Source: Aquificota bacterium (GTDB taxonomy: Bacteria > Aquificota > Aquificia > Aquificales > Aquificaceae). From it: a DNA stretch of 38,114 nucleotides. How positions within the stretch are numbered: the first letter of the stretch is position 1; each line of letters starts with the position of its first letter. A program made the position numbers and the translations under genes. The notes under the pieces were generated by a model. That model saw only the letters and a list, made by a program, of their open reading frames with translations, ran no database searches and had not been told where the DNA came from. Below, piece by piece: positions 20,190-38,114 of the stretch. The DNA lies in the NCBI GenBank assembly GCA_030549905.1, contig JAUQQK010000015.1, forward strand, positions 1 through 38,114, in the 5' to 3' direction.

Positions 20190-20744
20190 TTAAACCTCCT
20201 TAAAGATTTCTGAAAGGTCAAGCTCAAGCTCAAGCACCTTTGAAAAGACCTTCCCTTTTTCTCTTGCGGAAGAGGTTAGCATAAAGCCCTTTTCTGTGTT
20301 TTCATATATTTCAAAACTCTCCCTCAAAGGGTCTATAATCCAGTATTCCCTCACGCCAGCTTTCTGATAGTTTTCCTTCTTTACAATAAGGTCATAGTAG
20401 GCACTGGAAGGCGAGAGAATTTCCACCACCACATCAGGAGGACCATACACACCCTTAGAGGTAATCTTAGCCTTTGAACCTTTCAAAACTACCATTATAT
20501 CTGGCTGGTAGACATTTTCCTCATCAAGGTATAGGTCAAGAGGTGCGTATATTACCTCACCTTTGCCAGCTTCCTCTAAAAGCCTATAAAGCCTTATGAA
20601 GACCTTCTTTGAAGTTCTAAAGTGTTCAAAGCTCGGGCTTGGGCTCATTATAAGCTCTCCTTCTATCAACTGATAGGGACTTCCTTCCGGAAGCTTATCA
20701 TAGTCCTCTGCCGTGTATTTCTTTTCCTTTTCTAAAAGCCTCAT
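20190..20744 (-). CDS. Uma2-family protein (DUF820), second copy
   Basis: 184 residues of the Uma2/PF05685 family, which has a PD-(D/E)XK nuclease-like fold and no firmly established function. Expected acidic and basic positions are present: Glu28/Glu30 (LIEGE), Asp82 (YQPD), Glu108 (VVEILSPS), Lys122/123, then GVREYWIIDP. The active site therefore looks intact. It is a tandem paralogue of the next gene upstream (same KLPEGSPYQLIEGEL opening) and overlaps it by 4 bases. It ends one base before the soeB start, so it is fully inside the molybdoenzyme operon, an unusual location. Confidence 0.9.
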   Translation of the reverse strand: MRLLEKEKKYTAEDYDKLPEGSPYQLIEGELIMSPSPSFEHFRTSKKVFIRLYRLLEEAGKGEVIYAPLDLYLDEENVYQPDIMVVLKGSKAKITSKGVYGPPDVVVEILSPSSAYYDLIVKKENYQKAGVREYWIIDPLRESFEIYENTEKGFMLTSSAREKGKVFSKVLELELDLSEIFKEV

Positions 20745-21289
20745 GGCTCTACTCCTTCAAATACCTCTGAAAGCTCCAGCTCAATGCCAAGAAGTGGGGA
20801 CAACACCTTTCCTTCTTCCTTTACTTCCGCGAAGACTTCAAACCTGCCTTCTCTGTTTGTGTATATCTCAAGGCTCTTTTTTAATGGGTCCGCTATCCAG
20901 TATTCTTTCACGCCATACTTTTCATAGACTTCTTTTTTTATCCTGAGGTCATAGTAGGCATTGGAAGGAGATAGCACTTCTACCACAAGCTCTGGAGCTC
21001 CATATATGCCCTTTGCGGTAAGCTTAGCCTTTGAATTCTTCAGAAGCACCACAAGGTCTGGCTGATAGGCATTTCTCTCATCAAGGTATAAATCCACAGG
21101 AGAAAAAAGCACAAGACCCTTTCCTTTTAGCTCCCTTCTGAGTATGCTGTATATATTCCCTAAGACCATCTGATGGTAGGGTATGGGTGCGGGACTCATT
21201 ACAAGCTCGCCTTCTATCAATTGATAGGGGCTTCCTTCTGGAAGCTTTTCGTAGTCCTCTACCGTGTATTTCCTCTCTAAAAGCCTCAT
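20741..21289 (-). CDS. Uma2-family protein (DUF820), first copy
   Basis: 182 residues, same family and layout as its downstream neighbour: Glu24/Glu26 region (QLIEGE), Asp78 (YQPD), Glu104 (VVEVLSPS), Lys118/119 and GVKEYWIADP. The two copies are clearly paralogous by eye, yet they differ strongly in the segment after the MSP motif (about 33-70) and in the C-terminal 35 residues. It overlaps the catalytic subunit gene soeA by 4 bases at its start, so its translation is coupled to soeA. Function is unknown; DNA cleavage is only an inference from the fold. Confidence 0.9.
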   Translation of the reverse strand: MRLLERKYTVEDYEKLPEGSPYQLIEGELVMSPAPIPYHQMVLGNIYSILRRELKGKGLVLFSPVDLYLDERNAYQPDLVVLLKNSKAKLTAKGIYGAPELVVEVLSPSNAYYDLRIKKEVYEKYGVKEYWIADPLKKSLEIYTNREGRFEVFAEVKEEGKVLSPLLGIELELSEVFEGVEP

Positions 21290-37704: not shown

Positions 37705-37752
37705 TGCTATAATAGAAATATAGTTTTATCTGAGGGGGCTTTATGCCTCCTC
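37705..37752 (+). promoter_or_regulatory. Extended -10 promoter with a downstream hairpin, possible small RNA
   Basis: TGcTATAAT (37705-37713) is a perfect extended -10. The predicted start near 37720 is followed by a hairpin GAGGGGGC-TTTAT-GCCTCCTC (37732-37752; one G-U pair). No protein of useful length follows on this strand, so the product may be a small RNA running antisense into the end of the ribbon-helix-helix gene. The 98-base gap 37699-37796 holds nothing else recognised apart from a weak CCTG/CAGG stem (37784-37796). Confidence 0.4.
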
Positions 37753-37796
37753 GTCATCTTGGAAATTGAATAGGTGAGACGCTCCTGAAGGGCAGG

Positions 37797-37991
37797 CTAA
37801 AAGTCAAGGGGGTTATCTGTCATTGCGGTCTTTTCTATGAGGGCTTTGAGCTTTTGAAGTTTCTGAGCTATTAGCTCTCCCATAGGAACGCCCTTTTTGA
37901 TGCTCTCAATTCGTAGCTCTTCCCACAAATGATAAGGCAGGCTAATGGTGGTTCTTTTGTATCTTTGCCCTTTCTTCCTCTTCTGGTTCAT
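37797..37991 (-). CDS. Small ribbon-helix-helix (CopG/Arc-like) DNA-binding protein
   Basis: 64 residues: a basic N-terminus (QKRKKGQRYKR), the DNA-contacting strand TTISLP, then two helices (YHLWEELRIESIKKG and PMGELIAQKLQKLKAL). This is the ribbon-helix-helix pattern of antitoxins and copy-number repressors. The ATG at 37991 is preferred over 38024 because TACAAT (37999-38004) lies 7 bases in front and the longer form would be read through the repeat array. No toxin gene follows on this strand, so it is an orphan here. Confidence 0.75.
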   Translation of the reverse strand: MNQKRKKGQRYKRTTISLPYHLWEELRIESIKKGVPMGELIAQKLQKLKALIEKTAMTDNPLDF

Positions 37992-37998
37992 AGGTTTT

Positions 37999-38069
37999 AT
38001 TGTAGCATCTTGATGCTTGAGCATACAGGCATCTTGATGATTTGATGCATTGATGACTTGATGCTACAA
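37999..38069 (-). repeat. In-phase 8-base repeat array (operator) and -10 of the RHH gene
   Basis: On the plus strand TTGATG starts at 38010, 38034, 38042, 38050 and 38058, spacings of 24, 8, 8 and 8, so all lie on one 8-base lattice (minus-strand unit NNCATCAA). GCATCTTGATG is repeated exactly at 38005 and 38029. The array is bracketed by a 10-base inverted repeat TTGTAGCATC (38000-38009) and GATGCTACAA (38060-38069). The minus-strand -10 TACAAT (37999-38004) adjoins it, so a bound repressor would cover the promoter. Confidence 0.7.
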
Positions 38070-38114
38070 GCTTCAAAGCCTTGAAAGACAAGGATTTAAA
38101 TTTGATAATATCAC

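Follow-up and report, generated by a model that had tools for sequence, protein, structure and literature searches.

To our knowledge, control of CRISPR array transcription is understood in few organisms only. MetJ, which has SAM as its co-repressor and met genes as its targets, reads met boxes with an 8 bp period. The omega protein (ParB of pSM19035) reads 7 bp heptads, directly and inversely oriented (PMC9499535). AmrZ, a ribbon-helix-helix (RHH) regulator of Pseudomonas aeruginosa, is named as a repressor of CRISPR-Cas in PMC10013973 (citing Borges et al. 2020), and its base contacts are made by K18, V20 and R22, strand positions i, i+2 and i+4 (PMC3325190). In the Sulfolobales, the CRISPR-specific DNA-binding protein Cbp1 shapes array transcription (PMC10883916). 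The full-text literature that was searched, with most subscription papers outside its scope, describes neither an RHH protein nor a phased operator in CRISPR leaders, nor a regulator that has CRISPR leaders as its only recognisable sites and a gene that is usually adjacent to a leader.

The window, i.e. the whole stretch of 38,114 bp analysed here, comprises all of contig C10 and ends where that contig ends; C10 is part of a 1.65 Mb draft genome of Aquificaceae type (G000). Comparisons of this region with related genomes suggest a dedicated, hitherto undescribed switch of CRISPR immunity in the heat-loving Aquificota. The features of the window are as follows.

37732..37752, minus strand: hairpin GAGGAGGCATAAAGCCCCCTC past the RHH gene, terminator-like and without a T run, from reading of the sequence.
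37755..37773, minus strand: conserved distal leader motif CTATTCAATTTCCAAGATG.
37797..37991, minus strand: RHH gene of 64 codons, product beginning MNQKRKKGQRYKRTTISLPYHLWEELRIESIKKG; homologues agree on the start site.
37999..38004, minus strand (read 38004-37999): -10-like hexamer TACAAT, ending 7 nt before the ATG.
38000-38009 and 38060-38069: arms of a 10 bp inverted repeat around the array, 100% complementary.
38010..38063, plus strand: operator array with TTGATG at 38010, 38034, 38042, 38050 and 38058, in a single 8 bp phase.
38070..38114, plus strand: CRISPR leader, cut at the contig end; the leader on contig C3 is 97% identical over 153 bp.
38079..38093: leader inverted repeat CCTTG-N5-CAAGG; TTG-N5-CAA is found in nearly all leaders aligned.
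38081..38109, plus strand: promoter-like P2, TTGAAA-17-GATAAT, facing the CRISPR array and away from the operator; 10/12 matches, with a background of 0.5 per shuffle.

An initial annotation of this DNA had described five TTGATG words on an 8 base lattice, framed by a 10 base inverted repeat and lying directly upstream of the -10 of a small RHH gene. All of this was reproduced at the positions given above. The array pattern, TTGATGNNTTGATGNNTTGATGNNTTGATG, has one match in the 38 kb, with 0 mismatches, and none in 100 dinucleotide shuffles even when 3 mismatches are allowed. The array adjoins the RHH gene on its upstream side and overlaps its promoter, so the autoregulated switch proposed earlier is likely.

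We prefer the reading of 64 amino acids for the RHH gene because the alternative 75 amino acid ORF, from 38024, begins within the array, and the starts of homologues match the shorter form. The 7 nt spacing to the ATG is repeated in close homologues (e.g. TAAAAT-7-ATG), and with the hexamer this near to the start codon, transcription probably yields a leaderless mRNA, as it does at most of them. An AlphaFold2 model, a monomer built from six sequences, has helices at residues 20-33 and 37-57, and a strand region at 12-18 that is unpaired, as expected for a monomer. Its Foldseek neighbours are mostly RHH proteins (CopG, MazE6, MatP, AmrZ, Arc, ParD) with weak E-values, none below 0.001; structures of CopG-DNA and Arc are in the top group. 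No Pfam family reached its cut-off; RHH_5 came best (16.8 bits against a cut-off of 26), with RHH_4 and CopG_antitoxin also below. One family member has weak profile similarity to the omega repressor, and there is a weak Arc-like PHROG match. Taken together, the modelled fold, the motif and the weak profile matches assign the predicted protein to the RHH superfamily, for which NCBIfam and PADLOC hold no established family name. Judged by its codon changes, the protein is under purifying selection: dN/dS was 0.04-0.24 in 15 comparisons, which include duplicated copies of its own genome, and 0.08-0.18 between the three intact copies there. The window neighbour of the gene is DUF1122. Elsewhere in the window, at 20190-21289, are two similar adjoining proteins that look by eye like Uma2-family nucleases.

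The leader core, the proximal promoter P1 and the CRISPR array are absent from the window. Judged from homologous copies, the sequence past 38114 would be CRISPR leader. The element recurs in its own genome at both ends of contig C17 and on C26, C3, C25 and C7. Copies whose sequence goes on have a conserved leader that leads straight to the CRISPR repeats, which belong to two families, GTTTCAACTCCACACGGTACATTAGCAAC and CACCATCCCTCACAGTGGGCTTAAAAC; these copies support the divergent target earlier suspected beyond the window edge. The leaders abut the first repeat and are conserved between arrays of one genome, and the copy in the window is called a leader by homology. The breaks in the contigs are explained by the near-identical leaders. 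Leader cassettes have clearly been duplicated and many RHH copies are broken: those on C10 and the two on C17 are intact, that on C26 is frameshifted, that on C3 is internally deleted, and C25 and C7 have none.

In an alignment of 26 leaders from several genera, the sequence is nearly free of gaps up to the array and TTG-N5-CAA lies at an almost constant distance from it; this repeat may serve as a -35 region or bind a second protein. The motif CTATTCARTTGCCAAG forms the distal leader end in nearly all Aquificaceae leaders, including those without an RHH gene. In leaders of G016 and G018 (L131, L120), TATCAATAACTTA is found approximately 35 bp from the first repeat and resembles the IHF consensus WATCAANNNNTTR. 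Bending of the leader for spacer integration would be expected at such a place.

The boxes of the operator fall into three classes, CATCA (class A), CCRTA (class B) and GCATA (class C). A search of the own genome for further arrays, as the initial annotation had advised, found them at CRISPR leaders only. The exact 22 bp pattern of the window occurs solely at four leaders, with 0 hits for the reversed control, and a class B array occurs at three more, so that all seven leaders have an array in 8 bp phase. One match with 3 mismatches, at C7:35020, was taken as chance. Class B operators look intact at C7:116599, C25:60075 and C26:9850 of G000 and in G013 (863804; 864022). In the relatives searched, all pattern matches are CRISPR leaders or degenerate leaders, and reversed controls gave 0; this includes the apparent non-leader matches at G018:875758, G021 C53/C61, G009 C27 and G011 C3:165184. 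A general regulator with other targets was considered and rejected, as the genomes searched show no sites outside leaders.

Periodicity at lag 8 is found in most leaders, at a similar distance from the first repeat. The rows G000_C17s, G067, several of G016 and G013_503640 were not counted against periodicity; arrays are still visible in them. The array is also present in leaders without the RHH gene, in G016, G018 and G021. In G016 the RHH gene sits in the cmr operon, yet a CATCA lattice is present in the leaders. The array is not the RHH promoter in G018 and G021, because there the gene lies beyond the distal leader motif and a hairpin. Three G021 leaders have approximately 37 of 38 operator columns conserved, compared with 178/239 overall, and their flanks vary. 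In Aquifex-type, g6 and g9 genomes, leaders have the array while the RHH gene lies elsewhere, which makes the array part of the leader and more than a site of autoregulation.

The strong RHH family (E<1e-13, profile search) is present in 27 of 112 genomes of the order Aquificales, nearly all of them Aquificaceae. The gene had been called an orphan, which does not hold, since it is linked to CRISPR or cas genes in 25/27 genomes. The only exceptions are G024 and G077, whose genes (TTIKLSE) form a diverged non-CRISPR branch and were excluded from the code test described below. In G065 the leader is reduced to a remnant without repeats. The gene is found at a CRISPR leader or a cas2-cas1 locus; in G016 it is instead part of the cmr type III-B operon, flanked by cmr5-like and cas6-like genes as judged by reading the proteins. 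The recurrent order is array, leader and RHH gene, facing cas2-cas1b-cas4-cas3-cas8b1-cas5-cas7 on the opposite strand, i.e. type I-B, the full operon being typed in the own genome only. Between cas4 and cas3 of that operon (C17, L182:2293-2796) there is a match to the PADLOC candidate defence family PDC-S70. The RHH gene of G053 (L175) adjoins repeats that are of another type, a leader that has lost the operator segment, and a gene recognised by eye as TnpB-like. An origin from phages or plasmids, or decoy sites carried by them, was rejected: the viral contigs, phages and plasmids searched hold no RHH relatives, and the viral contigs hold no array.

Contrary to the refuting condition named in the initial annotation, the repeat is kept alongside the gene, at almost every leader, and its sequence changes with the predicted contact residues. 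Residues 13, 15 and 17 are predicted to point outward from the strand, and residue 15 is always T. Residue 17 is S or K with CRTC (18/18) and I, L, V or Y with CRTA (11/11; p=3e-8), and residue 13 is K with a preceding C (9/9) and R without it (19/20; p=1e-6), in residue and base classes that were defined after inspection of the data. The two residues are i and i+4 around the invariant T15. The class switches within g1, and again within g10/g11, between near-identical proteins. Supported tree branches give only three independent pairs, of which 3/3 agree (p=0.25), and linked inheritance contributes to the co-variation because the codons of the contact strand lie near the operator. The co-variation lends indirect support to a dimer that would place its beta ribbon in the major groove. 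We tentatively raise, as a doubtful extension, that arrays within one cell may be split into separately controlled sets by co-evolved pairs of RHH protein and operator. Class A CATCA boxes would be read by R13/S17 and class B CCRTA boxes by K13 with I17 or L17, giving each leader its own orthogonal regulator through a specificity code of two residues.

A promoter scan of the g1 leaders found an array-directed P1, TTGACA-17-TATTAT (11/12), beside the first repeat and P2, TTGAAA-17-GATAAT or AATAAT (10/12), beside the operator. In G013, P1 alone passes the scan. By eye, the -35 of P2 is 16 bp from the operator edge in g1, g4 and g10. Because these P1- and P2-like sites are directed toward the array, we propose control of array transcription together with autoregulation and commit to neither activation nor repression. 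We regard it as rather probable that the RHH protein acts in trans as a dedicated regulator of CRISPR array transcription and also regulates its own gene. In brief, small RHH dimers would bind the array cooperatively, presumably one per 8 bp box, at a predicted site in the distal leader, some 150-170 bp away from the first repeat. The protein would act in trans on transcription at every leader with a matching array, and at a gene that adjoins the array this binding would also cover the gene's own -35/-10 region and cause autorepression. The evidence here is that of sequence, namely the RHH-type protein, the phased array, its restriction to leaders, the linkage, the purifying selection and the co-variation of predicted contact residues with operator bases; physical binding, the sign of regulation and P1 and P2 as the regulated promoters are what we infer. 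Several findings count against the regulator. Conservation of P2 does not extend to g6/g9, and the scan does not call P2 in G016; the operator is more than 100 bp from P1, the better supported promoter. No intact class B RHH gene was found in G000 or G013, and in a few leaders, from G015, G058, G078 and G014, the array is weak or missing.

The RHH protein could instead be an architectural factor for spacer acquisition, which, bound to the leader array, would help Cas1-Cas2 to find or bend the leader end. IHF plays such a role in type I-E spacer acquisition of E. coli. The typical position of the gene between leader and cas2-cas1b agrees with this, as does an operator that belongs to the leader and is tied to no single promoter, and in the tested set all genomes with the cas1b-like clade (13/13) have the RHH gene. 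However, the leader integration elements known to us lie nearer the first repeat than the array does, and the RHH gene and operators are kept in three genomes where no Cas1 was detected (G004, G009, G071), with assembly gaps possible. This retention favours a role in expression and argues against a purely acquisition role, and we consider an acquisition factor unlikely.

The duplicated cassettes, the many broken copies and the overlap of the window array with the RHH promoter would also suit a passenger, an autoregulated gene copied with leaders by duplication and recombination and without CRISPR function. Such a passenger is improbable, as operators persist in leaders that lack the gene or have it elsewhere, including the cmr operon in G016, and are not directly before the gene in G018/G021; the purifying selection and the linkage in many genera point the same way. 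The initial annotation had implied a toxin-antitoxin frame, and the RHH fold, the weak CopG antitoxin similarity and the omega similarity of one member fit an antitoxin or a partition protein like omega/ParB. This reading is disfavoured and seems very improbable to us: no toxin or ParA gene adjoins in the loci inspected, the neighbours are CRISPR arrays, cas2/cas1 and cmr, with DUF1122 in the window, phages and plasmids gave no matches, and CRISPR leaders conserve the array even where the gene is absent or distant.

If a dedicated regulator is correct, the Aquificota offer a simple system of two parts, a 64-residue protein and a short DNA array, for directly testing control of immune memory. 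They would also offer a natural series of matched residue and base changes, useful for studies of RHH recognition.

Among the known systems, the CopG/Arc proteins are small, single-domain RHH proteins like this one, as the Foldseek and PHROG matches indicate, but they serve plasmid copy control and phage lysogeny and have no CRISPR link. The comparison with omega made in the initial annotation stands as far as RHH dimers on tandem short boxes are concerned, and the box orientations resemble those of the heptads; the period does not agree, being 8 bp as in met boxes and not 7 bp. Sequence similarity to MetJ and omega is at noise level, and the Aquificota protein has no methionine or partition context. 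By analogy, AmrZ is the nearest functional precedent and Cbp1 the nearest CRISPR-dedicated one. Cbp1 is a helix-turn-helix protein that acts mainly on CRISPR repeats, whereas here an RHH protein is paired with a leader operator. AmrZ shares with the Aquificota protein the tie of an RHH regulator to CRISPR control, a Foldseek match and a contact pattern, K18/V20/R22, like that of residues 13, 15 and 17. However, AmrZ is a global regulator that acts on type I-F and is encoded outside leaders, whereas the Aquificota protein appears dedicated to CRISPR, as the predicted reader of an 8 bp phased leader array.
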